Positions 5,205-64,000 of a DNA stretch of 64,000 nucleotides are shown here, in pieces. A model generated the notes under the pieces. The model was given only the letters and a program-made list of their open reading frames with translations. It was not told the origin of the DNA and ran no database searches. The stretch lies in contig JAMKCF010000013.1 of the NCBI GenBank assembly GCA_023634235.1, positions 14,943,705 through 15,007,704 on the forward strand, read 5' to 3'. Each line of letters starts with the position of its first letter. Position 1 is the stretch's first letter. Position numbers and translations under genes: made by a program. This DNA is from Pisaster brevispinus. Its lineage: Eukaryota; Echinodermata; Asteroidea; Forcipulatida; Asteriidae.

Positions 5205-5480
5205 GGCTACATACCCCAAAAGTCGTGAGAATGAACTTCATTGGGTGACATTATTTTAGTGATACACCCCATTGGGATATATATCTTATGGGGGTTACAT
5301 ATTTCAATGAGGGTATACCCATATGGATGGTATACCCGGTATGGGATACACCCAAATGGGAACCATGGGCCAAAGAGGATAATCCAATGATGTAGATATC
5401 CCATGGGTATACATACCCCTTTGGGAGAGCATCACCCAAACGAGGCACAAACCCCTATTTGGGAACAGACCCGAACTAGA
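5205..5480. repeat. Palindrome-rich degenerate repeat
   Basis: Many short palindrome-like words: CCATATGG, CCCATGGG, CCCAAATGGG, GGTATACC. About 17-18 bp spacing in places but too irregular for a clean unit. Downstream of the giant gene. Confidence 0.6.
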
Positions 5481-5799
5481 GTTACAGACATCTCGTATAG
5501 ATTTAAGGCAATAAAGGCACACTGTTGTAAGGACGGAAAAGTGAAAAATTTTGTTTAACTACAACAGCACTCTTTAACTACAGATGTTGATGACGTTTGG
5601 CAAGTTAAGGCTAATCAACGATTAAGCACAAACTTTTTCCTTGCTATGCTATTAATCACAAAGGGCGTGGGTGACTTTCCGAGAACCAACTCTGACGAAG
5701 TCTGCAGCGAACGGATAAAACAACAGCCAACGACACTACAGACCTTCATTCACAAACACTAAGGCCAGCCATAAATTTATCAAAAAACGTCCGTCAACA

Positions 5800-6321
5800 T
5801 CTGACAAAATATCTATTTTGGATTTATTATTATAAGGAAGGCGTCTCGGTTGCGACCGCTACATGGTGATGATGAGGCATCTCCCTCGTGTATAAAGGGG
5901 GAGGGGGGTTCTCAAAAATTTTAGTGTTTCTTTTTATATTTATAATTATGACTTTGTTCTCCGAGTAAGACAGTGAGGACATAAAGGAGGACAAATAAAC
6001 ATTGTACACGCTGTACCTTATTAGGGTCTTTTCAGGCTTAAATGTTTAAATTTAAGTTTGTTGAACCCTTTGGCAGTTCTAGAGTTCATTCACCGTCGGA
6101 ACTGAAATAGTTTACAGGTCTGGAAAAGATTTCAGAGGGTATCAACATTTCAAGTTCCGCTTTCTGTCATTTAAAAAAAAAAAAAAGAGGACTTTTGTAG
6201 GCGGGATAAACATCTCAAGACGTTCCGTTCTGCTTCTGTTCTTCAATCGCGTGAACCTCCGATTTTCATTTTTTTTTAGTTTGATCAGAATTTGTCCATG
6301 AACTGAATTGCAGAGGCCCCG
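5800..6321 (-). other. Probable 3' untranslated region
   Basis: Sequence following the stop codon on the minus strand; no coding signal. The first AATAAA on the minus strand after the stop is at 5,823-5,828, about 500 nt downstream, so cleavage near 5,800 is a reasonable guess. The true end is not visible from sequence alone and could lie further left. Confidence 0.4.
5823..5828 (-). terminator. Candidate polyadenylation signal AATAAA
   Basis: Reads AATAAA on the minus strand (TTTATT on plus), about 494 nt after the stop codon of the giant gene. Position fits a poly(A) signal, but the motif is common in AT-rich DNA. Confidence 0.35.
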
Positions 6322-6491
6322 TTAAGAACATGTTGTTATTCCCGCTCCGCCCGTTGGGTCTGCCTGGAGGTTGACGGAGGGTAATGTCTGGCTGCCCGGG
6401 TTGATGGCCGTGGCAAACTGACGGATGCAACCAACGAGGCCCTGATCGAAGTAACTACCAGTCAGCTGCTCGACATCGTTGGGATGCCCAC
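6322..6491 (-). CDS. E47: terminal exon, end of laminin G 5 and stop
   Basis: 170 nt to the TAA stop at 6,322-6,324. It encodes [20 protein letters not shown], then [10 protein letters not shown] and ends GITTCS. The two cysteines match the closing laminin G disulfide. No hydrophobic segment or GPI-like tail follows, so the protein ends in a laminin G domain. Confidence 0.92.
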
Positions 6492-9400
6492 CTAAAAAGA
6501 GTGGGAAAAAAAAAGTATCAAATGAATATTGAGAGGGAACAAGTCTTGAAAGGTTTTATTGGGGTTTAATCTTAGGAGCCAATTGTATAGATCTGCCCTG
6601 TTCAAATGAAGTTTGCTTTTTAAGGTTCATGAATAACCTGCCTTAACACCGGGCCTAATTTCATAGAGCAGAAAAACAGCGCGTCCAAATTTTCGACATA
6701 GGATTTTGGCTGGTAACCAAATTGTGGTAAGCAACATTTTGTCATGCTTAGCTCTATGAAATTGGCGCCTTGTAAAGTGCGTGATTCTATGCGCTGTAAG
6801 CGCAGAATTCTGTGGTAAGCAGAACCATGAAACTGGACCCAGTACAATTTCTTTACAGGGTTATCACCAAAGTTTTCCTACCTCGAAAACCATTCCATAA
6901 AAACTACCACTTTTATAATTTGGTTTTTACCCTTATCCTGAAAAAGCGCTGTATACTCGGAACTTTCGCGAGTTCTGTGAAAGAAAATCCGCAGGCAAAT
7001 CACTCGGGTGGGGTTCGAACCCAAGACCTTTGCATTGCTAGAGCAGATGTCTTACCACTAGACCACTGAGCTAGCCTGATGGCTAGAGGCGGGTCCGAAT
7101 CCTTAGCAGCGGGTACCGCAACGATTTAATAGACGTTATTTATTTTGGCATTGGGATAATAAATATAATCTACCACTATTCCTGGGAGTCTTTTTGACCC
7201 ACTTTGGATGGACTGAGAACAATGTGGATGTTTACTTTTGTCGTGAATGTTTTAAAAAGTTAGTGGACGCTTTACCTAGATACAGCAAGCTGCCGAACGC
7301 GTTGAGTCCCGTCTGCGAACCCGGACTCTGCGAGTTGACCGTCTGTTGGTTTTGCTGTAAATCCTGTATCGTCATGGCAACACTCCTACCCAACCTGTAT
7401 AAAACCAAGTCACCATTTTTGTTGTAAAAAAATTATCAGGAAAATAAGTGGGTCTCTAATCCACAAATGGTAAAGCAATGCACATGGTGATGCTCATTCC
7501 CTTCAACATTGAGTATTTTCCTGCAAGGTATGTGGGGCTTCGTTTGAAGTATGAGACCTACTCCTTTACATAGCACCATGTAATGGTTTACAAGGTGCTG
7601 TGGCGCAATATGCTGCCAATCAAACCAGGAACACCGGGGCAGACCCCTTCTCTTTTCGATAAGTGCACTGGGTTCTTTTACGTGCGTTACACAACACACG
7701 GGACCAACGGCTTTACGTCCCATCCGAAGGACGAAGCAATAATGGTTAACTGTCTTGCTTAAGGACACAAAGTGTCACGACCGGGACTCGAACACACGCT
7801 CTGCTGAGTCGGAAACACCAGAGCTTGAGTCCGGTGCTCTTATCCGCTCGGCCACGACACGCCACATCAAAGAGCAGGATTTCTTTATACATGGGGACAA
7901 AAAAGAGCTAATTTTTTTCGCCAGGCTGACTCAAAAAGTCTGCATTCAGATAAAAATATAACTATTTCTCATCCCCGCCACACTCACCTTGAGACCCTTA
8001 CATCGTACCACATATTGGTGTTGATGGCTATATTGTTGGCAGTGACCGACCCCACGCCGTCACCGAGCTCATAGCGAAACTCCACCCTCTGGTTTTTGAT
8101 CCCCAGGGCTATGAAGTCACTGGTGGTGCTGGCCCCGTACCACAAGAGCAGGGAGTTGGCCGAGGGGCTGCTCGTTCGGAACATGAGGGTGAACTCGTTG
8201 GACGAGAAATCACTGAAAAACGCATGACAACAATAATTATAACGACGACAACGACAACGTAACTGTATTACAGAACAGTGTCATACACTGCACTTGAATA
8301 TTAATATTCTTAAAAATAACTCCTAGAAACTAAGCCTCATATCATCTGCTAATTTGTCCCGATAATAATCAAGTTACTATTATTGTTGAATTATTATTAT
8401 CATTGTTATGCAAGGGGAAAGTAGTTTAAAAAAATAATAAATACATAAAAAATGTGTGGTAGTCTCCTCTACATCTGGACCCAATTACCTATAGCAGACA
8501 ATTTTGCTTAGCATTTTCCGGCTAATTATTATGATTATTAACAATTGATTAAGGTAAACTTTTTTTTAAGGTAAGTACAAATTTGGATAACAAATTATCC
8601 TGTAGGTGTTGAGTTTATAAAACCCTGAGGTTACAGGAAGTTTACAGAGAGATTTGAACGACTTTATACCTAAACACAAAACAAAGGCAAACACAATGAA
8701 CGTCAGTACATAATAATAATAATAATAAAGACATTTGTAAAGCGCCTAATGCTAAAGCCTCTAAGCGCATAAAGAGAACAATAAAATATACAATGAGTGA
8801 AAGATACAATTACAAATAAGCAGATTACAAATAAGCAGCTTCAAACAAATGAGTTTTTAACAGAGACTTAAAACAATGTAAAGAACTAGCCTGGCGAATA
8901 CGCACAGGAAGACTATTCCAAAGAAATGGTGCGGCGTAAGAAAATGATCTGTGGCCATAAAAAAAATGATCTGTGCCATCTATCTTTCCTTGATGGTGAG
9001 TCAGGTAATCTTTTAAGGAATTTTTTTTAGGCAAAATCACATTTTGATTACAAATTGGTCCTCAAGATCTTGAGTTTATAAAAACCATAAGTTTACAGGG
9101 AGTTACAGGGAGAAAGGCAAGAAAACTGAGACAGAAAAAGGCAAACACACAGTGAACACAAAATATGCACTTTATTCCTTGATGGTAACTTCACATAAAT
9201 TTCATAGTCATAGTCACAAGGCAAAGAAGATTTGCAAAAAAACAAAATATCCTGCAATCAGAAATAAGAATAATTATAAAGTATTTCTTTAGCACCTTAT
9301 GCAAGTGCTCAAAGCACTTCACAAAAGTACATATACAATACAATCAGCAACTATATATATATTACAGAACAAACACACACAACAATTATCAATAGACAGA

Positions 9401-12400
9401 GCACTGTGTACACATCAATATGTGTAAAGCAGTTTATACTCTGTACTTTCCCAAGTCCTGCGAAAAACACAGGCATATTACTCAGGTGGGATTCGAACCC
9501 ACGACCTTTGCCATTCTAGAGTAGATGCCTTACCAACTAGACCACCGAGATTGCCCGGTAGCCAGAGGCAGTTTGAATGCTATATTTTAGCGGCGAGAAC
9601 GGCAACAATTTCATAGATTTGGGGATGAAAAATATTATTTTGTATCAACCATACAGGTAATTCTTTTGAGAACTATCTTTACCTTGCAATAATCTCGGGG
9701 GAGAATTCTAGATAACTGCGACCCATGAACTGTGGTGTGGAGTAACTGAGGGCTGTAGAGGTGAGGGGGAAAAAACCATTATTTTTATTATTATTATTAT
9801 TATTGCTATTATTATTAATATTATTACACATTGCTGGTATTGAAACTAAAGGTGCCTCATAAGTGAACTTAATCACTGTAGCTCGCAAGCCTGAGGAAAC
9901 CTGTACACAAGGGTGCTTGCTATGTGAACCAGAAACACTGGGGTGAACCACTACTCTTCCATGATAAGTGTTCTGGGTTCTTTCATGTGCATTCCCAATC
10001 CTAGTACACGGGACCTATGGCTTAATGTCCCATCCGAAGGACAAAGCAACTAAAGTATCTTGCTAAAGGACACAAGTGCCATGAAACACCAGAGCTTTAG
10101 TCTGGCGCTCTTAACCACTCGACCACAACAACGTGAATCAACGACAGCTGCAAATAAAGACAGTTTACTGGAACACGAGTATTAGAATAAGCCCGTTGCA
10201 AGTTTGGTTTTTAATATAGTCTGGTATAACGACTTGATTTGTCACAAGTGAACACTCAAATTGGATGTCCCAGACTAAAGATAGTCACATGGTTCGGAGC
10301 AAGCTTTTGTATAGCAACCTCCAGATGGGCCAAGCATAGTACCATCGTGCCATGCACATTCATTCAGAATTGTTTCGCTGTCTTTTACGTAACTACGCAG
10401 GAACATCCCCCCCCCCCAACCATGTGACACAGCAACTGTCCGCAGTCTAAGGAACTCAAAACTTAACCTGTCACTAAAGACTAAGTCATTGTATCAGACA
10501 TTATTCAAGTCTAACTCACAAATGGCTTTATGGCAATGTAAATAAACACAGTTTACAAATTTGATACGGCAACATAAAAACATACAAATGAAACAGTATT
10601 GATGTGATATCTAAAAACTAAGCAAATTAAACAGAGGAAAAACAACTGCTTATTGAGAAAATTTTGAGCTGGCACAGTAGGAAAAACAAAAAAACGAAAA
10701 ATGGTTTGAAACTCACCGTCTGCACATGTCAAGCCAGTAAAACTAAAGGTACATAGACAGATAGCTACTCCATTGCTGTCATGGTAACATGTGCCGCCAT
10801 TCTGGCACTGTCTGGATGTGGGAAGAGACTCGCACGGCGTGGTCTCACAAAAGTCACCTTGGATTAGAGAATAAACATTGTTATTTACCGCACTTAAAGA
10901 TCCTTGTCATCTGATTGGCTGAACACGCGTCTTGTGTAATACTTTATTTTGCAAAGTATACTACTCCGACACTCTATAATGAAATGGAATAGTCCAGAAT
11001 TTGCTACCCTACAATGATGTTATCAGCACTTTCCCAAGACTTGCAGAAAAAAAACAATCACAGGTAGGCTACTTGGGTGGGATTCGAACCCATGACCTTT
11101 GCCATTCTAGAACAGATGCCCAACCACTAGACCACCTAGCATGCCCGGTAACAAGAGGTCACACCATTAAAACAAACTAAACGAAAGCCAAAAGTTCAAT
11201 CTCACCTGAGTACCCCGGTGCACAGTTACACCGGTAACCCTTAGCATCTACAGCGTCGTCGGCGCACGTGGCTCCGTTGATGCAAGCATTGTTGAGATTA
11301 CAGGGACTGGAATCCTGACATTGGGATAATCCTAATCCCAAGGATGGTTGATCCAAGGCCTGCTGCTGGCTGTTGATCTCCAGTCGACGGATGCAGCCAG
11401 AGAAACCTGTTTTTAAAAAACAAGTATTTTTTGTAACAAATTAATGGTTTACCCATAATTGTTAGTTCGGGCAGCTAGCCAGCTGGGCAAGTTATACCCA
11501 GTTCAGACGGGCGGTCTAGAGTTGCACCAAACCAAATTATTGAACTTAGTACATGCAAAAATTGACGCCTGAAACAGTTAAGAGTGACTGGACATACTGA
11601 AGTTGAAAGATCAACTGTTGCAGTCATTCTGATCGGCTCTGGAGTGTCTTGGTTTCAGACATCGATCTTGTCATAAGCCAAACCTAATCTAAATGTTATG
11701 TTAAGTTCGCCTGTCTGAAACCAAAATTTATTTGGGTCGACCTAGAGTCGCTCCTACTCTATTTGGTTCGGCGTGACTCTGGAGCGCCTGCCTGAACGGG
11801 GTGTTAGGTGTTTTTACTAGCCATTCAGGGCCAAATTTCATGGCCCTGCTTATTGCGAAACTCCGCGCTTACAGTGCCCTGTAAAGCGCGTTAATCTATG
11901 AACCATAAGCGCAGAATTTGCAAAATTATACAGTAAGCAACTCAATGAATTAAAAAACAATACACAAGTTAAATAACTGCCAAACATTTGACCCACCTCC
12001 AGTTATACCGGCCCTGCTTGGTATGACGACACCTTGGCCCACGCCCCCGATGTACGTCAGGTTACCGGCACTCAATCTGTTGTTCGGACCCAGTGACTGA
12101 CCGGTAGCCATGCCCAGTTCATTGTCCAGTTTCAGCTGACCCATGGTTGAATCTCGCACGACGTAAAGCTCGTGCCACTCGCCAGTCCTCACGCGGGTGT
12201 TGCTGATGATATTGGCCTGACCTAAGAAATTGTACAGAGTTCATTAATAACATTTTACCCATATTTTCAACACTCCTCTGACTTTTATAAAAAGATATAA
12301 CCCGTGAAGGTTACATGTAATGCTCAAATTTCAAAATAAAACGGCAAAAATAAATAAATCTGCTCACTTGACATTTTCCAGTGAGTTGACCTACCATTTG

Positions 12401-15400
12401 AAACCATTCAACTGCACAGGTTTTGTATGGCGGCACAACTGTGCACAGAACTAAACTGTGTACATGTGTGTGTTCTGCGTGGATACATTCACCAAATAAT
12501 ATCATCTTTTAAGATTGGCATAGTTTATCTATCATTCAAAATGGTGGGTAATATTAACTGGTCAGAGAGTTTCTAGGCAATGAAGGGTTAATGTTGCATT
12601 AAACTGGAAGACAAATTATAATATAAAACAGGAGATAAAAGAGAAAAAATAACTAATCAAACACATTCTGCAAATTTAACAAACAAACAATACTCAGATG
12701 TAAGTTGTTTACAGTTACTGCAAACTCTTCAACCCCTTCACTTAACGATTAGTGTAACTGGGTTCTTTATGTACATTACACAACACACAGGACCTATTGC
12801 TTTACGTCCCATTCAAAGAATGAAGCAATGGTCAAGTGTCTTGCATAACAACACAAGTGTCAAGACCTTGACCCAAACCAACACTCTGTTTATCAGGGAC
12901 CATTTTCACAGCTCTGCTTATCGTAAGCAAAGAATCGGCGCTTACTGAAGCAGGGAATACGCGCTTACGTCGAGCGTACTTCACAGGTTAGCAGGGAATT
13001 GATTCCTTGCGCACGTGTGTACTCCACTGTATTAGGCATTTTTCGCTTACACAGCAAGCGCAGGAATTTAGCGCTTGCACAGTAAGCCAAGAATGGTGAT
13101 CGCAAGCGCAAAATTCGGCGGTAAGCAGAACCATAAAAATGGACCCCAGATGTTTGCTGTAAAGGTTTTATTACGTTATTTTTGTACAAACCTGAGCCCA
13201 GATCAAAGGTGAAGTGTACGTAGCTGTTGACCAGACCGATCCCAATGAAGTCATTGCTGTCAGCATTCCACAGAAGGACTCCACTGGTACCCGACGGTTT
13301 AAACTCCATACGGATCATGGTGGTCGATGCGGGGATGAGGATGAATGAGTGGGCCTGGTACGACGGCGGCCCGAAGGACGGGATGGTTACGCTCGTCGCT
13401 AACAAGAAAAAATACAAAATCATATTGACTCTCACAGCTCACTACCTTTTCTTGAACCTCAAATCAGTCATTTATTAAGCTGCTTTGCCACAAGAGTCAA
13501 AGCACCATGACAGGTATGCTATGTTTTGAACTACAATATTGTTGAGTCAGTGCAAAAATGTCGTATCTCCAATTTGCTAAAACATCGTATCTCCAATTTG
13601 CTAAAACATCGTATCTCCAATTTGCTAAAACGTCGTATCTCCAATTTGCTAAAAAGTTGCTAGAAAATCGTCTGTGCAAAAACATTGTATCTCGGTGCGT
13701 ACTTGTTTTGTGTGTACATCCGGGCTATTTTAACAGAGATACAACGCTTTGTAAACAAACTCGCGCGTAATGTGCTATTTTAAGAGTTACGACGATATTA
13801 CTTTTTCACAGCACCGTGTAAGGGTTTACAAGGTGCTACAGCGCAACCTGCACCCAACCATACCTGTATAATACCTGAATTAGTCAAGTTTTTTTGAGAC
13901 AAATTTCTGATTTTCTGGATTTCTTCATTAGGCAGCCATCTTGATTCTTCTTCATGTAAATCAATCTAACCCAACAGAGGGGAAAGCAAATTAGTTGACC
14001 ACCTTTTACGATATTTTTTTTTTTACCCTCTTACTATCCTAACATTCAACATCGTGTTCAATTAAAAAGTCCTCGGAAATGACGACGTACCTATTTGACA
14101 TGTTGACCCCGTCCATCCGACCGGGCAGCTGCACCCAAACGTGTCATCATTGATGACACGGCACTGACCGTTACGCTGGCAGGGGTTGGGGGAACAGGGG
14201 CTGTTGTCACACTGACCAACGTCAACCCCACTTGTGGCCGTCTGCCATAGGATAGGTGAAGCTACAGTCCCGCCAACCTGCACGTAAGAAATAATGTCCC
14301 AAACAAATTGAACACACAGATCTTGTTTTATTTGGGGTTTTTTAGGAAGAAAAAATCTATTAGAATTGCATAAGAATTCATTAGAAAGATGTGGGAAAAA
14401 TATTCTGTTTTTTTTTGTTGACCCCAAATTTTGTTAAAATCAAAACTTACCTGTAAATCTTGCATGCACCCTTGGAAACCAATGAAGAAACCTGTATCAA
14501 GATGCAGCTGGCTGTAGTCTGGCGCCCCGCCAACGAGTAACGTTCCAGTGATGGTCAGAGTGTCCACACCGCTACCCTGGTACGTGGCGACTTGGTCATC
14601 TACAAACAAGTCGGCCGAGTGACCGTTGCGCTGGAGTGACGCCGTGTGCCACTGGTTCAAGGTGATTGGCTGGGTGCTTAGAACTACCGTGATGTCACCT
14701 TTGTATTGTTCAAATAAAGATCAAGTATTGTTCAAATAAAGGGTAAAAACCAACTTATTTTCGTTAACCCCGATGCAGAAATCTATTAAATTGTTGCGGA
14801 ACCTGCTGCTATGGATTTGAACTGCCTCTAGCCATTGAGCTAGCTGGGTGGTCTAGTGGTAAAACATCTGCTCTAGCAATGCAAAGGTCACAGGTTAGAA
14901 ACCCACCCGAGTGATTTGCCTGCGTTTTTTATTCTTCACAGAACTCAGGAAGCACAGAGTACACAGTGCTTAAAAGCACATTGATATAAAGGTAAAAACC
15001 AAATTATATTCGTTATCCCCAATGCAAAAATTAACATCTATTAAATTTCTGTAATCAATTAATAATATGTGTTACTGCGCTGTACCCTTTTTTTAGTTTT
15101 AACCATAGCACTTGAGGCAGTCAGTGTTTGTACACTATCTACACTGACCTAGATTGTATCTCATCTGCACCAAACTTCCCAGCATGCCGAGCGCCAGGAA
15201 GTTTCCCGTCGGGGAATTCTCTCCCATGTAGATCAGGAGTCCGTCACTGGCTGTCGGTCGAAACGTCAATCTGATACTGGTTTGTAAATCAGCTGACCTC
15301 ACCGGGTCAAAGGTCAAGTGAGAGGCACCGGTGAAACTGGGACTCAGGCTGGCGAGATCTGAAACGAGGAAGGAGTATTTTTAGAAAGAGTGGGTGGAAA

Positions 15401-18400
15401 TTTCAAGGCAAAAGGAAAACGTTTGGGGGTGAGAACGGTCAATTCACAACTCTGGGTTATATTTCAAGGTATTTATATTCCTTTGGAATATGATCGCTCA
15501 AAAGCTCAATGTCCCAAATCTAGTGCATCACTTCTGTCTTAAGACAAACTCAAAGATTAGCAATCGTCGTTAAAGTAATTGATGAGTTTCTCCATCTGAA
15601 ATACTGTAAAATTCAGGAAATAGCATTTAAGGACCCCCTAGGCACCATTGCTTATTTCAATAGCCACAATCAGAATAAGAACATATAGAAATGTGTAGAG
15701 AATCCCTCACAAAAATTGTTGGAATTATTTATCAGTTTCTCCAACCGAAATGACTTGAAGTGAAGTCCAGAAAATAGCATCAAAAGACCCCAAAGTACCA
15801 TTGCTTATTTCAATCGTCACTATCGAAATAAGAGCATACACAAATATGTACAAATTCCTAACAGAACTCAAACCATTTTCCTTTTGCTTTCACTACAACG
15901 AAATCACATAATTTGATGAAATTTTCACAGATTGGTTGTATGGTGTGTGTATTGAAAACTAGCAAACGAAAATGAATTCATTCCTCTACAGTGACGTACT
16001 TTCCCTTTTAAAACTTTCAGTCTTACCCTGATCGGTTTCACAGAGATCTCCAGTTTTATCGAACGGACACGAGCAGCGAAAGCTCGCGCCAACGGGAACA
16101 CAAGTGGAGCCGCTAGCACACCGGGTGTTCTCGAAACACCCGTCGTGAGAAAGCTCGCAGTTGCTGCCGTGGAAACCGACGGGACACTGACACGTGTAGG
16201 AGCCCGGGGATGAAACACAGATGGCGCTGTTCTCGCAGGGAAGCGCATCGCAGAGGTTGTCGTCACATTGGGCGACGTTGGCTCCACGCAAGGCCTCTGA
16301 TTGGTTGAAGCTTTGGATGAGTGAAGAAAAAAAAAAGTTTTATAATAAACGCATTGGGTGATACAAAGAAATCCTCAACTTTCATTCCATATTCTTATTT
16401 ACCAAGATAGATCAAAGGGTATGCAAATAAAAGTAATAATAATGAAAAAAAATGTATAAAAATCATTATAATGCAGATATTAAATTTGCATCATGAATAA
16501 AGAATACTATTTGTATGTTTTACCCATACATAGATTATGTTAATTTCTGAGTCCTGTGTTAAAAATCAACAGGCGTACTAGTCAGGTTGGATTCGAACCC
16601 ACGACCTGTGCCATTCTAGAGCAGATGTCTCACCACTAAACCACCGAGCTTGCTAGAGGCAGTTCTATATTTTCGCAGCAACGATGAATAATGTATTTAT
16701 CACAGGCTTTTTCAACCCAACTGGACCCCTCAAAGTGCTCTTCACTATTATTTATTACCGCTGTTTATAGGGCTGGACGCATTCCTGAAACCATCTCAAG
16801 CGATTGTAGTCCCATGCGGGAGACAATGAGTTTAGGGTCTTTTTGGTTTTGATTTCTTTTTGTAAAGCGATGGGTGGGTGGGTGTGGGTGATGGTTTTGA
16901 CTACTATCTGCCCCAGTGCACCACAAACCCTAGGTACGTCACTACCTGGGGTGCCTGACGAGTTGCTTTACAGCAGGACTTGGAAAGCTCCAAGTACAAA
17001 TAGCCTGTGAGGTCTTTCACTTTCATACAAACACATCAGTGACGTCCTGGATGTGAGGATCCGTTTCTGATCCGTTTCACTGGATTAACATGCCATGGCA
17101 GCATAATTTTTTTTGCCGGTGGGTTTTGGACTTCAGATATTCCTCATAAATCTTTCATATGCATTAGGTCTACTCTACATTATAGCAAATAAATCTAAAT
17201 TGAATCGACGATGTATATACCGACCTGTACGAAAACCCTTGTATGGTCAGAGACAGAATACAGCCTGTGAATCCTACATTGACCCCTGACCTCGAGGCCG
17301 CAGGGGTCAGGTCGTCCATGCCACCCACAAACACCTCTGGCTGTACATTCAGTGAAGAGAGCTGTCCAGGGGATGTTCCACTTTTTGTGCTGCAGGAAAA
17401 CAAAAGACACACCTCGACTAAAATACAGGATTGAGTTCCAGTTTCATACAGCGGCTGCAGCAGAAAATATGGCTTAAAAAAATTCTGCTAAGCGATAAAT
17501 GAGCAGGATACCAGTCACAGATGGTACATGTGACATGGTATTTTGGCTGGTAACCTTATTCTGGTAAGCATAATTCTGTTGCGTTTAGCTTCTTTTGTGT
17601 TTAAGCAGCTCTATGAAGTTGGGCCTATACATTATACCCAAAAGGTGAACGCCTGATGAGCCCAATTTCATAAAGCAATTTCTGATGAGCACAAATTTGC
17701 AGAATACCAGTCATAGATGGTACATGTTACATGGTGTTTTGGCTGGTAACCTTATTCTAGTAAGCGTAATCTTGCTGTACTTTCTGCTCAATGAAATTGG
17801 GCCCAGGGTTTACCTAAGTTAAACTCTGAACACTTTTTTTTTAATGTTTTACTTTGTAAGCACATCAGCGCAAGATACATACTAAATTAAGATAAATGAA
17901 GACAACTCATTTCTCACAAAACAATGACTGTGCTCTTTCAAGTTCCAATGAAGTACCTTTAGTTATCGTTTATGAGTACGGGTGTGGAACACGTTGAAAA
18001 TTTTTTTTTTTAACTGACCTTTGACCCAAGACAGTCATCTGACTGGATCTGCCGTCTCTTTGTACCTCTACTGTGACCCAACTATTGAGGGCCACGGGGT
18101 CACTAATTATTCGCACTGTGTCGATACCTGTGCCAGACAAAATAGAACAAATAATCAGCTCGATGAATCTGGATCTTGTTCCTTTTTTTTCCAAGAGTCT
18201 TACGAGAGTTTGAAATGTGCAATAACCAAGCACTACCATATTCATTATAAAATCAATCATTTAATAAATCCGCCGATCATACTGAAAGAATCCTCACCAA
18301 GGTTGTATTCAAACTCCACCCTGCTGTCCGTGAGCGACAGAGAGAAGAAATCCCCCTGTACGTTTTCCTGCGTTGCGTACAGCAGCAGACCGTCCGGTTC

Positions 18401-48400: not shown

Positions 48401-51400
48401 GTGTTACCTTTCATAAGGAAAATGTTGCATTTTTTTAAAATGATGTTACAACATGTATGTATTAAATGACATGGAAGTTTGTAAAAAATTAATTAAAAGG
48501 CATTATATTTGGTCCTAGAAGAAAAGTAGAATAATTTTATTGAGTAATAACATGTACATGGTGTGTAGGCTTTAATAGACTTTTCTGGATATTTAATCGT
48601 TTTTTTCTAATTTTTCAAATTGGTAAATAGAGAGAATATCATGCTTGAATTAGGTAAAACATTGGCTTTTCTTTGCTCTTTTCTGATAACTTTCTTCTGC
48701 TGTTTTTTTTTTCTTTTTTGAAGACTTTCTGCAAAACACCCAAGGGTTTATAAATTTGTAAAATGAATACAAAATCTACTGATCTTTTCTCTCTTTGCAT
48801 GTCAAATATCAAATTAGTATTATCTATCAATTAATAAAGAGATAATGATGAAAATGATGTCAAAGATGTTATGAGAATGGTGGTTATTTGTGGTGTTAAT
48901 GAACATGAAGAGAGTGTGGGGGGTGGCAGTGAAAATGACAGTGAAGACCCAAGTCTCAAAATTAAAATCTGCAAGCCAGGAAGGAATGCACTTGAAAGTG
49001 TTAAAAGTGAAGTCTTGTCAATAATCTCTTTGGTAAAAACATCATTCAACACACACACAATTTTAGTTGAAAAAAAAATGGCGGCAAAATTATTTGCCAA
49101 TATTTTTATTTTTTTTTATCAAACATGTCAAATTGGCACTTTCTGCTAAAATACAAGTTTCACAAATTTCGGAAGTCAAATTTACTTTGTTTAAAATGGC
49201 CTTTGGAGGAGTATTGAAAATGGCCTTTAAAGGAGTGTAGAAAAATAGCGCAGCCCCCCCCCCTTTGATAAATGGTACAAAAGTACACGCAAAGCGCTTC
49301 AAGAATGATACTGATTTATAGATTCATAGACTTGGTTTGAAATCAAAGCTGTACCTAGTTTTCATGTGATTAAAAAACATATAGAATATGTTAAAGTTGA
49401 CCAAGACCATGAATGAATAACGATGTTTAAATGTTGACAATGTTAGAAATGATAGGACAGAAAATGTTAAAAGGAAGATACGAATGATCAGACAGGCTGT
49501 TAACGGTTATAACATGTAGATGATGTCAGTGATGATGAAGCAGAAAAACTGATTGGAAATTACATGTAGGCGATTGCACGGATGATAGCAGGATGATAAC
49601 GGATTAGGCAATGAAAACAATTTAAAATAAATGAAGTTAATTTGATGATGCAAACCCAAGAAGACCAGAACTCAAAAAGGGCAAGTTTAAAGAAAACCCA
49701 GTCATCCAAAGGGTGTTAGTGAGTAGGTTCACAGAAGCACACTGAGAGAAAAGAAAGCAAAACGCAAAAGGTGAAGAGGATGGACTGGTGAACAAGTCTA
49801 CCATGTTGACCCATGACACACCAATTAAATATTCATATCACACTCAATATGTCACCTGTGTAGCCTGGTATGCAGTCACACTGGAAACCATTCACTAAGT
49901 CCACACACGCTGCTCCGTTTTGACATGGTGTACTGATGCATTCTGGGATGTTGATCTCACAGTGGATACCAGTGAAACCGGCAACACACTGGCAGCTGTA
50001 TCCATCGAGTGCATCTTGACATGTTGCGCCGTTCAGGCAAGGGTTGCTCTGGCACTCGTCAAAGTCAGTCTGGCAACGGTCTCCAACAAAGCCACTCGGA
50101 CATGTACAGGAAAAGGCGTTGGTCTGGTCCACACACTGTGCACCATTCACACATGGATTACTCGCACATTCATTGATGTTCGTTGCGCAAAGTACACCGC
50201 TAAAGCCGTCCACACATTCGCATACGAACATGTTCAGCAAATCAGCACAAGTTGCCAAATTCTGGCACGGATTACTGGCGCACTCGTTTATATCGATTTC
50301 ACAATTATCACCTTGGAAACCGGCAACGCAGAAGCATACGTACATGTTGACGCCATCACGGCATGTACCGCCATTCCCACATGGATCAGATTCACACTCA
50401 TTTATGTCATTTTCACAATGAATGCCGAGGTACCCATCCGGGCACAAACAAGTGTATCCGTTGACGTCTTCAACGCATGTTGCTTCATTTAGGCAGGGAT
50501 CACTTGCACATTCTAAAATTTCTACCTCGCAATGAGTTCCGGTAAAACCCGGCAGACAAGTACAATTATACCCAGCGACTTTATCGACGCAGATCGCGGC
50601 ATTAGCGCAGGGGTTACTTAGGCACTCATCTAATTCAACTTCACAATTACTACCGTTAAAGCCGTTTGCGCATTCACACATGTAAGCATTGATTAAGTCT
50701 ACACAGCGAGCTCCATTCATGCAGGGACTGCTACTGCATTCGTTAATGTCAGTCTCACACAGCTTACCTTCAAACCCAGCGAGACAAACACAGTTGAACG
50801 CGTTTATCTGGTCTCGGCATTCAGCGCCACTCTGGCAGGGGTTGCTGGCACACTCGTCGATATTTACCTCACACTGCTGACCCTGGTACCCTGGAAGGCA
50901 CTGACACTGGTAACCGGCTACCAGGTCGGTGCACGGTGCCCCGTTAACACATGGAGAACTGTCGCATTCGTTAATCTCCTCTTCACAGTGAGTTCCCGTA
51001 AAGCCTTGGCTGCACAAACACTGGTAGCTGTTGACACCGTCCACACAAGTCGCCCCGTTCCGGCAAGGCGAGCTGCCGCATTCCGCAACATTAGTCTCAC
51101 ATTTGTCCCCAACGAACCCTAGGACACACAGACACCTGTAGCTTGCAATTAGATTCTCACAAGTTGCCCCATTCTCACATGGGTTACTGGAGCATTCGTT
51201 GATCTCAACGTTGCACCTGGCCCCAACAAATCCATCGCCACAATTACATCGGTACCCTGGGAGCTGGTCTACGCACTCGGCACCATTCAGACATGGGTTA
51301 CTCAAGCATTCGTTGATATCTTGGTCACAGACTGTCCCTCCGTAGCCATCGATGCAGAGGCATGAAAAGCGGTTGATCTCATCCATGCAGGTAGCCCCGT

Positions 51401-54400
51401 TACGACAAGGATTACTCAGGCATTCGTCCACCTCAAACTCGCAGTTTGTACCCTGAAAACCCAAGTTGCAATCGCACTGGTAGCGGTTAACAAGATTTAT
51501 ACAGATGGCGCCATTCTGGCAAGGACTGCTGGAACACTCATTAATATCAAGTTCACAAAGGGTACCGTTGAAGCCGTCAGGACACAGGCACGAAAACTGA
51601 TTTAGTTGATTGATGCACTGAGCCTCATTCAGGCATGGGTTGCTGGAGCATTCGTCGATGTCCAGTTCACAGTGGACACCTTCAAAGCCAGGCAGACACA
51701 CACAGATGTAGCTTCCCACCTGGTCCAGGCAGTTGGCATTATTCATGCAGGGACCACTGTCGCATTCGTGGATGTCCTGCCCGCACTCAGACCCCTGGAA
51801 TCCCACTGGACAAATGCAGGTGAAGCCATTGACGAAATCCTGACAGGTGGCGCCGTTGGTACAGGGCATACGCGCACACTCATCAATGTCAATTTCACAC
51901 TGGGTACCAGTGAAACCAGGCAGGCACTCACAGACGTAGCCATTGACACGATCTGCACAGGTAGCTCCATTTTGGCAGGGGTTACTTGCACACTCTAAAG
52001 AATCCAGTCCACATCTTAATCCCTCGTATCCCTCAACACAGTCACACTCAAAACCATCCACAAGATCTTGGCAGGTAGCATTGTTTAGGCAGGGGCTACT
52101 TGCGCATTCATTGATGTCTATCGCACAAGTTGGGCCTGCAAAACCTGACAGACAAGTACAGCTGAAGCTGTTAACTTCATCAGTACACTGCGCACCGTTA
52201 AAGCAAGGCTGTACTTGACATTCATTGATATTTGTTTGGCAGAAAACACCTTCAAATCCCAGCTGACAGTCACAAGTGAAGCTGTTCACACCGTCTGTAC
52301 AAGTGGCTGTATTTAAGCAAGGGTTGCTCGCGCACTCGTTGATGTTGATTTCGCAATTTGTTCCCTGGAACCCTGCATTACAAATGCACTGGTAACCGTT
52401 CACCAAATCGCGGCAAAGCGCTTGATTCTGGCATGGTGTGCTGGCACATTCGTCCGTATTCACCTCGCAGTTGATTCCACTATACCCAGCAATACAAACA
52501 CATGAATATCTGTTGACACCATCTACGCACTCGGCACCATTCAGGCACGGGCTGCTGAGACACTCCTGGATGTTGGTCTCACAGCGCTCACCGATGAATC
52601 CAGGATTGCATACACAAATGAAGCTGTTGGGCCTGTCCTGACACTCAGCCCCGTTCTCACAAGGACTACTTGAGCATTCGTTTATCTCCTGCTCACAGTT
52701 TGTACCAAAATATCCAGGAAGACAAGAACACAGATACCTGTTGAGGAGGTTGGTACAAGCAGCTTGGTTCAAGCAAGGGTTACTTGCGCATTCATTGATA
52801 TCGGTCTCGCAGTTGATGCCTCCGTAGCCGGCTGGACAATCGCAGGTGTACCCTCCGATAGCCTGAGTACAGGGAGCTCCATTCTGACAGGGGTTGCTTG
52901 CACATTCATCGATATCAGTCTCACAGAATGTGCCTTCCCATCCCATCAGGCATTGACACGAAAATCGGCTGATCCGGTTCAAACACACTGCATTATTCAA
53001 ACATGGGTTACTAAGACACTCGTCGACTTCATTCTCACAACGGATCCCAAAAAAGCCCGCCTGGCAGTCACACCGGTAACCATTGATCAGATCGATGCAT
53101 TGGCCATTGACGCACGGGTTGCTCTCACACTCGTCTACATTAATCTGACAGTTAATGCCCGAAAATCCAACAGGACATTGGCAGCTGTAACGATCAAAGA
53201 GATCCGTGCACACGGCTCCATTCTGACACGGGTTACTGCTGCATTCGTCCACTTCCTCCTGACAAAGAGTCCCCTGATACCCAGACAAACAAACACAAGT
53301 AAAACCCAAGAATCTATCCTGACAGTTTGCAGAGTTTAGACAGGGTGAGCTTTGACACTCATCGACTTCCCTCTCACAGTTAACACCTTCGTAGCCACTG
53401 GCGCAGGTGCAGGTATACAAGTTGATGAAGTCAGTGCAGGTGCCTCCATTCTGGCAGGGCATGCTAGAACACTCGAGAAACTCTATTTCACAAGCCATGC
53501 CGAAGTATCCCGGTTGACAGAGGCACATATAACCGTTGACCTCATCCAGGCAAACAGCCCCGTTCTGACAGGGTCTGCTTATGCACTCATCTATGTTGAT
53601 ATCACACTCACTGCCCGTGAAGCCGCCATCACAGTTACAGATGTAGCTGTTTGCGGCGTCCTCACAGACCCCGTTTTGACATGGATTACTGAAGCATTCA
53701 TTAATATTAACTTGACACATCTCACCTTGGAATCCAGGCAGGCAGGCGCAGGTGTAGCCGTTAATTATGTCTACACATCTGGCTCCATTTGCACAGGGAC
53801 TGCTCATGCATTCATCTGTATTGATCTCACATTGGGCCCCATGAAATCCTGGCTCACACTCGCAGGTGAAGAATCCAACCCCTTGCGTACAAACACCTCC
53901 AGAGAGACAAGGCTGGCTGGCACACTCGTCGATATCCTGCCCGCAGTTTACACCAGTGAAGCCTCGCCGGCAAGCACAGCTGTACGCGTTGACCTGTTCC
54001 ACACAAGTACCACCGTTCATACACGGTAAACTGGCACACTCTCGGATCTCACTCTCGCAGTTGATCCCAGCGAATCCGTCAACGCAAGCGCATGAATAGC
54101 GCCCCACTTCATCAATGCAATCGGCGTTGTTCTGACACGGGGCGCTAGCGCATTCGTTCTGATTGATCTCACAAAGTGTACCAAGAAAGCCAAGGATGCA
54201 CTGACAGCGGAACTCATCGATCAGATCCTCACAGGTGGCTCCATTTTGACAAGGGCTGCTCCCGCACTCATTGGTTTCAATCTCACAGTTTCGTCCACTG
54301 TAACCTAAGACGCAATCACAGATGTACGAGTTCACTCCATCGATACAAGTTCCTCCATTCCGGCAGGGGTCACTGATGCACTCTGGAATGTTCTGCTCGC

Positions 54401-57400
54401 AGAAGGTTCCCCGGTATCCAGCCTGACACACACAGCGATACATGTTCACAAGGTTTCCACACTGGGCACCGTTCTGACATGGCTGGCTGGCGCATTCGTC
54501 AACATCAATCTCGCATCGCGTCCCCGTATACCCCGGATCACAGGAGCAGAGGTAGCCGTTAATCAGCTCGTTACAGACACCGTGACTTCCACACGGTGAA
54601 CTCTGACACTCACTGACGTCCGACCCGCACAGGGGACCGGTCAAACCAGCAGTGCATAAACACACAAATCCAGCAACCACGTCTTGACACGTTGCTCCGT
54701 TCATACAAGGGTTACTCAAGCATTCGTTGATGTTCACATCACAGAGGTCTCCTTCATATCCTGGAAAGCAATCACACCGGTAACCATTCACCATGTCGGT
54801 ACAATTGGCGTTTACCCCGCAGGGATTACTTGCGCACTCGTTGATGTCAATCCCACAGGTGGTTCCCCTGAATCCAGGCAGGCAGGCACAAGTGAAGAGG
54901 TCCAGACCCTGCGTACAGATCCCTCCATTAAAACAAGGAGTACTTGAACACTCGTCGATGTCGGTGCTACAGGATTCCCCCGTGAAGCCAGCCGGGCACA
55001 GACATTGGTATCTGTTGATGAGATCAAGGCAAGTTGCTGTCTGATGGCAGGGACTGCTGAGACACTCATTTAGGTCTTGCTCGCAGGTCGTACCTAGAGA
55101 TAAAGACAAACAAATTTGAAGGTCAACATGTGACGAACAAAAGGGAGCAGGGATTCACCATCAACCATTCATGGGGAGACCGATCTTTCTCACACGCTGC
55201 GCCATGCCTATGGAACAAATTGCCAGCACAAGTAAAAACATCTGTTTCTTTAACCCTATTTTTAAAAAAACCTAAAGACTCATCTTTTCAATCAAGTATT
55301 TGAGTAAATGATTTGTTAGTTTTTTTTACCTATATTTTTAATTTGCATTTCTTAACTACATGCATTGTATTCTGGAATTCTTCAAAGCTAGGCCTCCATC
55401 GTGCTTGTTTGTCCAAACGTCACACCATAGAAACATTAAAAAAAGGGCAACACGTTTCACCAGAAAGCAGAAAAAGAGTTACCAACCAAAACCACACTGT
55501 GGTGTATTACAATAGTGGCAGGTTCCCTGCTAGAGTTGTCAAACCACCGATTTTTCTCAGAGCCACCCCTTCTCAAAAGAGATTTTACACAAGATGTCAA
55601 CGCATACCCTCACCTGATTGTACTCCCTCCACGCAAAGTTTCAAATCCTTCTGCCAGTTTTTGATAAACAAACGGATGGGACTAAACCAAAGACCTTTTG
55701 AATTCTACCAATTGGTTGAAGAATCCTATACCATGTCAAAAGGTCTCTTATTGGATCCTGATAAGTCTGATAAGTTTGGTCAAACAAAAGTTTGGCAAGC
55801 ATTTCTTAGATTCACACAACAACAGTGATAAACCTTTCAAATTTCACTATTGGAAAGTAACCACTTGTATTAAAAAAGATTTGAAACAAACATTTTTAAA
55901 TTGTGAAAAAAAAGAGAAACAAAATCAGGAGAAATTATCTGCACACAAAATATTTTCAACCAATTAATGGTCAACTGCACTAAAAAGCATTAAAATACTT
56001 GTATTTATGTTAAAAATTGATTAGTTTTAAAGACGCACCATTATATCCTGGTACACACTCGCAGGTATAAGCAAAAATGCCATTGACACAGGTTGCGTTG
56101 TTCAGGCAGGGGCTAGAGGCACACTGGTCCCCATCTTCTTGGCAGTTGGTCCCAAACCATCCTTCTTGACAGATGCAACTGTACTGACCGATGCCGTTCA
56201 CGCAAACACCTAGAAGAAAGAAATAAAAAACAAGTGGAAAAAAATCCAAACTCACCAAACTCATAAAAAGCAGTGGGGGTATTTTTTGCTCTAGCCCGCA
56301 GTCACGAGGAAACAGACTGGCCCCCTTTTGTGCAAACAACTTTTAAACAAGGGCTTCAATGTCAAATTGAGTTTTGTGATCCACTCACTTTTCAATAAAT
56401 GTCCTCATAAAAGTCGGGGGAAAAATTACAAGTCTCTAACCTTGCGTTAAAACGATGTAAATTGTCATTTCATCGAATACTCTTGCGTAGTGAAATTTGA
56501 AACATGATGTCATCGAACATCAAAAACAAATGGGTCTGTACAACAACACAAAGAGGAATTTTTGGGGCCAGTCACTAAAGGTTAACTCCAATGCTGTTTT
56601 GATTGAATACCATCAAAATTCAGGAATGGATTAAAAATTCTCCGTACAAAAATGAACAGAACATATATTTGAAATGCGATGTCATTAGACGCTTTCGAAC
56701 TTTGACAAAAATTGCACTTGAAGGGTATCAAACACAGTGGTGTTTTACACCATTTTAATGTAAAGATAGAGACTTCCATGTTTTCCCAGATGTTCATAAG
56801 GACTCTATCTACTGGAAAATGAGTGGAACTCAAAACTGAGTTTGACCTTGGAGCCCCTCTTTAACATTTTGTCAGCCTTATGACAAGCAGGGAACTCAAC
56901 TGGTGCTTTCACTGTAGCTACAAACAAGCAGAGAAAAAACTGAGATCAGGAATTCCTTGACGCGACCGATGAGGCGCTCTACTCACCCCCGTTGATGCAA
57001 GGCCGACTTGAACACTCATCTATCAAGTCAGTGTCACATCTTAACCCGGCCAGCCCCTGCGGACAGATGCATCGATAGGCCTTGACTAGCTCCTGGCACG
57101 TCCCGCCATTAATGCACGGATTGCTGGCGCACTGATCACCATCGATCTGGCAATTAGCTCCGCTGAAGCCCGCCGGACAGTTGCAAGAATATCCATTGAT
57201 GCCATCAATGCATGCACCTGTAATAATAATAATAATAATAATAATAATAGAAGAGAGATTGTTTTTTTCGAGTAGGGAGAAACTGGGGATAAGGCACCAC
57301 CAGACCACTCAACCCCATGGTCTGAACATCCAAAAAGGAAGTGACTAAACTTGTTGTCTTTGCCTTCTCCTTTTTCCACAGATATCCCCCAGTTTAGTCT

Positions 57401-60400
57401 GTCTCACTCACTAATTAAGTATTTGTTTCTCCCTCTTCCCATCTTTGATTTTGTCTTTTGTGTTTCCCACCTTTATGGTTAAACCAGCCTCTTCCCTCTA
57501 CCCCTGTCCCCTGCCTCATTGTTCATCCCTTGCTTTTTCTGTGTGCTTTCTGCCTCTCTCTCTCTTTTCATTTCTTTCCACTTGACTGCTTCTGTTACAC
57601 CAGTATAACTGTTTACATGTGTTGTGTTTTTAATTAGCTATGAGCAAGACTCTGCTAGGGTCAATAACATCAGGCCAATAACTATTTTTTTGCAACGATA
57701 ATAACACACAGTTCTTTTTGTAATAGATCATTATGTGCAACCTCAACATAAAAACGATTGGATTAAAAAACACTCAAAAAAATAATATACTAAAAGACCA
57801 CAACACTGTAAAATCACACATAAAAACTGAAAAAATTACAAATTAAGAAACAAGGCAGGGCAAGGAGAAAGCAACGACTTGATAAAAAAGACTCGGGCTG
57901 TGCATCTACGTTTATTTTCCTAAATGGTTGAATGGAAAACGATTACTTTAACGATTACGTTTAATGGAAAACTCCAGAAGCTGAAGAAGTAAAACAAACA
58001 ATAAAGTTTTTTGCGGAATACCGACGCGAAGTTGTTAAAGGGTCAGATCACTTACCAGTGTTCTGACAGGGGCTGCTCGTGCATTCATCAATGTTCACCC
58101 CACATGTCACTCCGGTAAAACCCAGGATGCACTGGCAGGCGTATCCCCCAATCCTCTCCACACACGTCGCCCCGTTCATACAAGGCCCGGAACCGCACTC
58201 ATTGGTCTCCTCCGAACAGGTCGGTCCAAAGAATCCTACGGGACAGACGCAGGTGTAGCGGTCAACGAGGTCCTCGCAGGTGGCCATAGAGCTACAGGGA
58301 TTGCTGGCACACTCATCGATGTTTGTTGAGCAGTTGAATCCTGAACGTCAAAACATCAAAATCAGCACCAAGTTTAATATTACAGGGTCTACACTGGTTA
58401 CTCATTCAAAAATTCTTATTATCTTCAAAACAGCTGTCAATGTGTACAAAGCACTTTCGAACATTCACCCAAAAAACAACAGACTCACTTGATCTCAGCA
58501 TGTCCAACTGAAGTGGCCTCCGCTCGAAGCGTTACTTTTAAAAATACATCACACATTCAAACATGCAGGTGACAAGGCCTTCTCAGTAGCTGGAACCAGA
58601 TGCTGGAACTTGCCAACTCTCAAATTTCCCTCAAAATTCCATTGGACAAATGGAACTCGATTCATACCTAATTTCATCTTAAGGTTCTTGTTCAGCACAA
58701 TGTACCTCTCTGGAACTACTGCCCTTAGCGCATCGCAACCATTGCAACAAGGCACTTTATAAACACTTGTACTTTTTTTTATTTATTTTTTTTAAACATT
58801 TTTATTACTGCATGTTGTTACTGTAAAAAGTTCTATTATTATCAATTTCTGGCAATGAAACCAAGGATGCTTCGAAAGTTAACTTAATCACTGTAAAACT
58901 CGGAAGCCTGAGGAAACCTGTACACAAGGGCCCTTAAGGGTGCTCGCAATGAACCAGAAACACAGAGGTAAACCCCTACTCTTCCAAAATAAATCTACCA
59001 AAGCCACAGGATCTACGGCTTTCTGTCTCATCCAAAAGAAGAATGTATGGGTCTCTGATTGACTCACCTTCAAACCCAGCTGCACAGTTACACCTATACT
59101 GTCCATTCTCAACGATGCACGTTGCGCCGTTATCGCACGGACACGTCCTCAAATCCGTCTCACAATTAGTCCCCGAGAAACCGGGGGCGCAAATGCACCG
59201 GTACCCGTTCGATTCGACAATGCAGGCGGCTCCGTTAACACACGGATCACTTGAACATGGTCTAGCAGCACAGGATAAACCTAAAATTTGGGACAAACGT
59301 CACATGTGTAAAAACACCTTTCAAAAACAATAGCAAAGAGATTTGCTATGACAGGAATTTACATGTAGATCACTGGTTTCTGCTGCCTTTACTCCTCAGC
59401 AATGCGGCTTCTAAAACAGACACAGTCAAAGTCATAGCCAATGCAGAGTTTGCCCTTAACTTTTTCAGTGACTAGCCAATGCAGGCTAGTACGGCAGGTC
59501 GGTGACGGGATTGTGCCTTTGAAGATACAAGCATGGCACACTGTCAGAGCATGTCACGACTAAGATATCTGGGTACAAGGTTTTAGCCAGGATTTGGTAA
59601 AAGGGTGTCAAAATTTGCTGGAAATTAGGTGTCAAAACTGTTCACTTACAATACATGTAAATGATAGATAAAACAGGCTGTCCAAAACTTAAAACAGGGT
59701 GTCTTAATTTTATAACACGGCGTCTTAATTTAAAACACGGTGCGATCCAAAAGAAGCTCAGACACCCCCCTGGCTAACAGGATGTCTGGATATTGGGCCA
59801 AGACAGGTTTGTTCTGGGACTGTAAGTAGAATAACAAGCAATGGCAGCCATTTTGTCTATTTTTAAAAATAGCTTGTTATTTTACCTGTATTTTTTTTCA
59901 AAAGACAAATCTGCGATGGCCGAATATTTTTCTTGTGACACACGTACTGAGCCTGTGTGCCAAACAGCATACCACACTAATGATGTCACTTTTGCTCAAA
60001 ATACCAAGTTGTCAGACCAACTTTCTACCGCCCGTGCGATCACCACATCGGCACGCCAGACCGCAGTTCTAACAGTGCAAGCGAGTAAACATGAAGCTTG
60101 GACATGTAGGCGCATGTAAGATAGTGAAATTTGACCTGTTGTCCGAGACTGGGGTACAGAGCTTCTATTTTTTGCATCATTCCGGAGTGCTATGCCATGC
60201 TGGTGTCATTAAAGGCACAATTCCCCCAATTGTTTCCCCTATCAGCAAAGTCCAGAACCAACAGCTTTGATTAATGCTTCTGGCTAAACTGCTGTAATTT
60301 ACCAATAAGCCATTAAGCAATACTTTTGATTGCAGCAGCCAAAGTTGAAGCTCAAGAAAATTTCAATGACACAACGCTGAGGGTTTGCTGTATCCTTCTT

Positions 60401-63323: not shown

Positions 63324-64000
63324 CTGGAGTGAGAAAGAAAAAAATCACCAACTTTATAAGGGATGGCTGGTAAAAGTTCAACCTGCTGGCCATATGCCAA
63401 AATCACTGGCCTCGGGCCTGCTGTCCAGTGTTGGCCCAATACTTAAATCACTGGCCTCGGGCCTGCTGTCCAGTGTTGGCCCAATACTTAAATCACTGGC
63501 CTCGGGCCTGCTGTCCAGTGTTGGCCCAATAGTTAAATCACTGGTCTCAGGCCTGCTGTCCAGTGCTGGCCCGATACTTAAATTACTGGTCTCGGGCCTG
63601 CTGTCCAGTGTTGGCCCAATACTTAAATCACTGGCCTAGGGCCTGCTGTCCAGTGTTGGCCCAATACTTAAATCACTGGCCTCGGGCCTGCTGTCCAAAA
63701 TTGGCCCAATACTTAAATCACTGGCCTAGGGCCTGCTGTCCAGTGTTGGCCCAATACTTAAATCACTGGCCTCGGGCCTGCTGTCCAAAATTGGCCCAAT
63801 ACTTAAATCACTGGCCTCAGGCCTGCTGTCCAGTGCTGGCCCGATACTTAAATCACTGGCCTCGGGCCTGCTGTCCAGTGTTGGCCCAATACTTAAATCA
63901 CTGGCCTCGGGCCTGCTGTCCAGTGTTGGCCCAATACTAAAATCCCTGGCCTCAGGCCAGTGCTGGCCCGATGCTTAAATCACTGGCCTCGGGCCTGCTG
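63324..64000. repeat. 45-bp minisatellite running off the window edge
   Basis: From about 63,399 a 45-bp unit repeats at least 13 times to the window end. Each unit contains CACTGG and later CCAGTG, which can pair as a small stem, and CCTCGGGCC. It lies in the intron upstream of E1 (63,324-63,398 is plain intron). The unit length is a multiple of 3, so two plus-strand frames stay open; these are not genes. Confidence 0.9.

Follow-up and report, generated by a model that had tools for sequence, protein, structure and literature searches.

We lean towards the view that a gene on the minus strand of a 64,000-nucleotide stretch of DNA from Pisaster brevispinus (C13:14943705-15007704; here called the window) encodes a giant secreted, EYS-like and glycan-binding tether from a separate lineage of proteins with laminin G (LG) and EGF modules. 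This lineage would stand apart from the sampled EYS, pikachurin, agrin and perlecan proteins and comprises two species so far. A broader proposal has, in our judgement, about even chances. According to it, the lineage constitutes a fifth LG-EGF family beside EYS, pikachurin, agrin and perlecan, an echinoderm or ambulacrarian one that arose before chordates and protostomes split, is concealed in databases by the label "eyes shut homolog," takes the form here of a secreted giant with 142 EGF modules, and changes in length by unequal exchange of EGF units. The Pisaster protein is a variant of very large size among the LG-EGF matrix proteins and not a new kind of system; what is surprising about it is its position in the family tree rather than its size alone.

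The gene model was obtained by an exon-chain search together with homology and manual refinement. It comprises 47 coding exons, read from 63323 to 6322 on the minus strand with the 5′ end missing, that form one predicted open frame of 6,643 residues. The sole stop of this frame is the TAA at 6322-6324, and an AATAAA or ATTAAA hexamer was found 493 bases past it. A preliminary description of this DNA had counted 47 exons and 46 introns in one frame for more than 6,600 residues, and the same numbers emerged from our separate exon-chain search after this refinement. Its approximately 142 EGF modules, five laminin G domains, LDLa domain and mucin segment were likewise all recovered by Pfam, an EGF pattern and a hidden Markov model (HMM). 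The Pfam search, which that description had proposed, confirmed EGF, five LG and LDLa domains in the six pieces of the protein that were scanned, with the five LG domains and the one LDLa domain exceeding the Pfam cut-offs; exons 4-6, 8-18 and 21-26 were called EGF by pattern and profile only.

From the N-terminal side, the protein consists of an LDLa domain, a mucin segment, a long EGF array and five LG domains separated by one or two EGFs each, all encoded on the minus strand. Exon 1 (63180-63323) encodes the LDLa domain with its six cysteines (Pfam PF00057, 32.9 bits). Exon 2 (60899-61795) contributes an EGF, the Thr-rich mucin segment and another EGF, as recognized by pattern, repeat finder and Pfam; the mucin segment has 228 residues, 67 of which are Thr (S+T+P 48%), in tandem 42/84-bp units. 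EGF modules then follow in exons 3-6 (56039-59280; EGF pattern and HMM), in the 5,238-bp exon 7 (49856-55093) with 45 complete modules (Pfam and pattern), and in exon 8 (47496-48407) with 7 complete modules (EGF pattern). Exons 9-18 (36064-45569) continue the series with four complete modules in exon 15 and fewer in each of the rest. The 3,259-bp exon 19 (32572-35830) holds 26 complete EGF modules, some of which form a tandem array of 123-bp units, and exon 20 (30289-31567) holds 10, while exons 21-28 (22234-29477; pattern and HMM) extend the EGF modules as far as the first LG domain. LG1 and the start of the next EGF are encoded by exons 29-31 (19818-21248); the first half of LG1 corresponds to the exon at 21102-21248, and the domain is complete with the exon at 20633-20877. 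The EGFs of the LG1-LG2 interval lie in exon 32 (19153-19321), LG2 and two EGFs in exons 33-36 (16027-18513), LG3 and one EGF in exons 37-39 (14091-15358), and LG4 with the start of the next EGFs in exons 40-42 (11206-13398). Exon 43 (10717-10857) encodes the EGF between LG4 and LG5, and exons 44-47 (6322-9752) encode LG5, the C terminus and the stop. A hydropathy scan found no membrane anchor: the highest 19-residue value (1.77) fell inside LG1, and LG5 extends to the stop. The Pisaster protein is thus predicted to be secreted.

Among known systems, EYS is a close match in layout. It is a secreted protein in which an EGF array precedes five LG domains interspersed with EGFs, with an LG domain at the C terminus and O-glucose motifs in the EGFs; the five LG domains of the Pisaster protein also alternate with EGFs, its stop directly follows LG5, and it lacks an anchor. 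The domain combination, which the preliminary description had regarded as unfamiliar, is for this reason not unprecedented in kind. The two proteins nevertheless differ. Human EYS is 3,145-3,165 residues long and has 21 EGFs N-terminally in addition to those that separate the LG domains (PMC8127272, PMC3003713), compared to at least 6,643 residues and 142 EGFs in Pisaster, and the available text of these two sources mentions neither an LDLa domain nor a long mucin segment in EYS, whereas the Pisaster protein has both. In addition, the LG domains of EYS cluster in a clade of their own, and the Pisaster protein lacks most EYS-diagnostic residues. Pikachurin (EGFLAM) shares the LG-EGF-LG-EGF-LG end, an identity of up to 32% and the grouping of Pisaster LG5 with its LG3, but is a protein of about 800-1,080 residues with three LG domains and, in vertebrates, FN3 domains; FN3 was without a match in the six Pfam-scanned pieces, and pikachurin-diagnostic residues were at background level. 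Agrin and perlecan resemble the Pisaster protein in their three C-terminal LG domains with EGFs between them and in glycan binding. They differ in their upstream follistatin-like or Ig/laminin-type modules, and neither follistatin/Kazal (agrin) nor Ig and laminin-IV domains (perlecan) gave a Pfam match in the six scanned pieces. Dumpy of Drosophila has a ZP domain and DPY modules and is not known to have LG domains. It is similar as a giant EGF matrix protein with more than 300 EGF modules, near-identical tandem units and 78 coding exons (PMC2930355). EGF arrays with O-glucose motifs are also found in Crumbs and in Notch and fibropellin, and Crumbs has LG domains too. Fibropellins are not known to have LG domains. 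Notch and Crumbs are transmembrane proteins and Notch has no LG domains (PMC4238978), whereas the Pisaster protein has no anchor; a Crumbs-type anchor with a short cytoplasmic tail is absent, as the stop follows LG5.

Three protein searches covered size ranges of about 671-2,137, 2,532-8,055 and 979-3,115 residues, and few echinoderm proteins were among the matches listed. With the LG region of a preliminary model as the query, the best of 110 matches was a "protein eyes shut homolog" of Lytechinus variegatus (P0004; 1,102 residues), which showed 44% identity to the Pisaster LG region (E 6.5e-201, 688 bits); pikachurin, amphioxus EYS and bird EYS came next with about 345-361 bits. P0004 resembles the Pisaster protein throughout the LG region in its LG order 2-3-4-5 and equal EGF spacing, but the Lytechinus model starts mid-EGF and is without LG1 and the two EGFs that follow it, the EGF array, the mucin segment and the LDLa domain. 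A 4,603-residue query yielded fish EYS proteins as the four best of 16 matches (best 606 bits), and no protein named as echinoderm was among these 16 matches listed (2,532-8,055 residues). Among the 87 matches listed for an amphioxus EYS query (979-3,115 residues) were EYS proteins from vertebrates, arthropods and Lingula, as well as an unnamed relative from the worm Ridgeia. Lytechinus P0004 and any named echinoderm EYS were absent from these 87; the echinoderm matches were Jagged (Anneissia, Holothuria), an axotactin-like protein (Amphiura) and an uncharacterised protein (Apostichopus). Lytechinus therefore provided the only other member among the matches listed in the three size-limited searches. 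No description of the Pisaster protein was found within the literature library searched for echinoderm EYS and giant echinoderm EGF proteins, for EYS in general, for LG proteins and for Dumpy, and the main text of a review of the echinoderm matrix (PMC10381214) does not mention "eyes shut."

The LG domains were placed in a tree of 72 domains from 21 hand-chosen proteins, with the Apteryx LG1 left out as short. In this tree, EYS domains from vertebrates to insects clustered mostly by position (LG1 and LG2 were mixed), and two of the groups contained a Nematostella domain. Pisaster LG2-LG5 paired one-to-one with Lytechinus LG1-LG4 outside the EYS groups (bootstrap 100, SH-aLRT 98-100), and Pisaster LG5 fell into a larger group that also contained pikachurin LG3 and the C-terminal LG of EYS (96/88). 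A grouping of Pisaster LG1 with Slit (96/80) was distrusted, as the branch measured 2.17 and LG1 is too diverged for placement. When the last three LG domains were concatenated, the eight EYS rows formed a clade without the Pisaster-Lytechinus pair (97/97); Lytechinus was the sister of the Pisaster protein in every tree and with 100/100 support in the concatenated one. For this tree the LG domains of Lingula and Nematostella EYS were shifted by one position, on the basis of the 72-domain tree for the first two Nematostella LGs and of their order for the third Nematostella LG and for Lingula. The preliminary description had suggested a lineage-specific protein. The single further member among the matches listed and the position of the pair outside EYS when outgroups were included speak for this, but few echinoderm proteins were shown among those matches, so that the term holds as far as these matches and trees extend.

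The most serious alternative, which we consider possible although clearly less probable than a separate lineage, is that the protein represents a true echinoderm EYS orthologue, fast-evolving and EGF-expanded, whose tree position is a long-branch error. The stem of the pair is long (1.11), and such an error may apply for this reason. The orthologue reading also draws on the shared layout (N-terminal EGF array, five LGs, an LG last, secretion), on the fish EYS matches among proteins of roughly 2,500-8,000 residues, and on the lack of another echinoderm EYS among the matches listed for the amphioxus query. The best tree does unite EYS and the pair, weakly (69/55), and a position of the pair as sister of bilaterian EYS was compatible with the data (p 0.24); unions of the pair with pikachurin (p 0.28), agrin (p 0.105) and perlecan (p 0.38) were so as well. 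Nesting of the pair with EYS of the chordates, which were the nearest phylum compared, was in contrast rejected when outgroups were included (p-AU 3.6e-9, at a cost of 63 log units), for each of the three LG domains taken singly (p 0.049 for LG5, 0.012 for LG4 and 0.00018 for LG3) and with the outgroups removed (p 0.019). In the latter case the pair was placed within arthropod EYS with a branch length of 2.19, which indicates that the placement signal is weak. Sequence identities point in the same direction as the rejection: amphioxus EYS shares 50% with Lingula and 43-44% with two vertebrates, compared to 26% each with Pisaster and Lytechinus, and the Pisaster protein is nearer to vertebrate pikachurin (32%). 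Furthermore, by eye, the LG3-LG4 interval contains a single EGF in both echinoderm proteins versus two in Sardina EYS.

Residues diagnostic of EYS gave a similar picture. In LG3-LG5, the Pisaster protein matched 6 of 34 EYS-diagnostic columns and the Lytechinus protein 8 of 34, while bilaterian EYS members that had been left out of the definition matched between 27/51 and 35/39 (53–90%). Nematostella EYS, which the tree accepts as EYS, matched 8/31 and thus did no better than Lytechinus. With one family at a time outside the definition, the other families reached 6-26%, the pair 17-29% and Nematostella EYS 30-33%. The values of the pair are slightly higher than those of most other families, in favour of an orthologue, and the residual EYS signal is faint. 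Columns diagnostic of other families were matched in the Pisaster protein at 6/23 for pikachurin, 2/14 and 0/15 for agrin and 3/17 for perlecan. The name "eyes shut homolog" of the Lytechinus relative is not supported and may mislead, because the pair falls outside the EYS clade. Should the LG lineage prove separate, echinoderm proteins of this type that are named "eyes shut homolog" would be unfit as evidence on the photoreceptor protein EYS. Echinoderms would then possess an uncharacterised giant matrix tether, with a bearing on mutable connective tissue, tube feet and sensory organs.

All 46 introns have GT-AG borders and a median length of 770 bp, and their phases (31 in phase 1, 8 in phase 2 and 7 in phase 0) agree throughout. 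Splicing is required for module completion at 41 of the 46 junctions, which lie within an EGF or LG module; only junctions 1/2, 14/15, 18/19, 28/29 and 39/40 fall between modules. It is unlikely, in view of these cut modules, the consistent phases and the lack of an internal stop, that the exons are split over two or more transcripts, for example for one protein made of EGFs only and a short one with LG domains, with no single giant chain. The precedents for such a split are human EYS, which has short 5′ isoforms and a 3′-only transcript (PMC8127272), and Dumpy, which is alternatively spliced (PMC2930355). The Lytechinus model, which spans the C-terminal 1,102 residues only, and the five between-module junctions could also be read in this way, but the mid-EGF start of that model is like that of a truncated prediction. 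The sequence hence supports a locus consisting of one gene for a giant protein of at least 6,643 residues (approximately 0.7 MDa before glycans), in line with the single giant extracellular protein and the missing N terminus of the preliminary description.

No start codon was found in the 49 kb upstream of the window, which lies inside a contig of 18.57 Mb (assembly 549.7 Mb) and does not end at the contig end. These 49 kb contained neither additional EGF exons (best HMM score 9.6 bits) nor a convincing signal-peptide exon, and the missing N terminus is therefore probably short or more distant. A first simple Viterbi model with 78 exons was discarded, since it split the mucin segment with spurious introns and predicted spurious exons within a minisatellite. 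The exon-chain search gave 52 exons, which were edited by Lytechinus homology, domain completeness and phase. Five exons were removed by hand (63771-63945 and 63407-63635, both 45-bp minisatellite, and 60029-60068, 46910-46947 and 19578-19607), one was extended (63180-63323), two were merged (60899-61795), one was added (21102-21248), and the donors at 47496 and 17225 were relocated.

The 142 EGF modules were counted as 139 by a six-cysteine pattern and 3 by an HMM. As a chance control, an EGF HMM was trained on 80 modules taken from three long frames of the Pisaster gene; counting scores above 5 bits, it matched the minus strand of the window 157 times and the plus strand 5 times. An O-glucose motif was present in 112 of the 142 modules. 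By patterns that we take to be the usual definitions, O-fucose motifs were found in 40, O-GlcNAc motifs in 106 and beta-hydroxylation motifs in 100 modules, and 41 or 48 were calcium-type EGFs depending on the pattern used. The tandem array of exon 19 (32637-34651) comprises 16.4 copies of the 123-bp unit with PPPLP linkers (92% matching). Its 17 units of 41 codons have a mean identity of 88% and a dN/dS of 0.20, at least two of them being identical; the dN/dS value indicates that the array is maintained as protein. Although this array is the sort of sequence in which an assembly error could inflate the EGF number, we consider such inflation very improbable, given that its units average 88% identity, that the tandem repeat finder reported no other EGF array in the window, that synonymous sites have reached saturation (pS 0.88) among 29 pattern-picked 38-codon EGF units taken from across the protein, and that the contig is large.

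The Pisaster protein appears to have been enlarged via tandem duplication of EGF units. Exons 4-6 (56039-58340) have lengths of 285, 231 and 171 that recur in exons 10-13 (41920-44679) as 285, 145+86 and 171. The two blocks share 118 of 229 residues, and their match is the best non-overlapping one by a small margin (757 versus 717 for other EGF windows); they likely represent a block duplication after which one intron was gained or lost. This one gene offers an extensive natural series of EGF units, ranging from identical copies to saturated ones, for studies of repeat-protein growth. Elsewhere in the genome, EGF-like coding stretches of 56-99 bases that are 74-82% alike to part of exon 7 were observed at C23:3527854-3527919, C23:3550471-3550569, C27:3095551-3095611 and C15:958649-958704.

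Among the calcium ligands of LG domains are a residue of the D-E loop that is acidic, in most cases Asp, and a residue of the J-K loop that is either acidic or an amide (PMC6450144). At the positions matched by alignment, Asp and Asn are present in LG2 and LG5 of the Pisaster protein, Asp and Ser in LG4, and Asn and Thr in LG3, while LG1 has neither ligand. The Lytechinus counterpart of LG2 also has Asp and Asn, but that of LG5 has Ser and Ala; LG2 alone is therefore predicted to be competent in both species. The Asp that is altered in two EYS disease alleles occupies a conserved LG position (PMC3003713), which is probably the same column as the Asp of the putative Pisaster calcium sites. Calcium is necessary but not sufficient for sugar binding of LG domains on dystroglycan, and pikachurin LG3 by itself did not cluster dystroglycan (PMC6450144), which suggests that a tandem pair may be required. 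Human EYS LG domains bind matriglycan in vitro (PMC7210881), Drosophila Eys is required for the placement of laminin and perlecan in the eye (PMC12167501) and makes use of the O-glucose motif (PMC4238978), and dystroglycan, agrin and perlecan have been reported from echinoderms (PMC10381214).

A mode of action like that of EYS, pikachurin, agrin and perlecan can be proposed on these grounds. The C-terminal LG domains, LG2 foremost and in Pisaster LG5 too, would bind acidic surface glycans, with the matriglycan of dystroglycan as an example. The rod of EGF modules, rich in sites for Notch-type O-glycosylation and in part calcium-binding, would be a long spacer filling or bridging an extracellular space. 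At the N-terminal end, the mucin segment would provide hydration and spacing, and the LDLa domain would bind a second partner. Judged from its domains, a calcium-dependent LG anchor on a long glycosylated EGF rod would fit a matrix spacer or tether.

Several repeats were observed in and around the gene. Dispersed repeats that are about 71-80% alike occur at 6914-7174, 9412-9620, 14779-15030 and 26967-27255; two of these copies overlap tRNA-like predictions (6999-7073 and 9478-9551), and the repeats probably constitute a tRNA-derived SINE family in introns. Four other tRNA-like predictions, at 7772, 11067, 16579 and 63003, were not tied to the SINE-like repeats. A second dispersed intronic repeat of about 170-195 bp (78-85% alike) was found at 17437-17625, 23502-23697, 43081-43277 and 45779-45955; copies of a third, about 400-500 bp long and 69-75% alike, lie in either orientation at 2716-3215, 20046-20465 and 56345-56864. 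Minisatellites with 45-bp units are located at 63400-64000, 38103-38692 and 37580-37981. The first of these contains long open stretches in one frame (SDLSIGPTLDSRPEA), which misled gene prediction.
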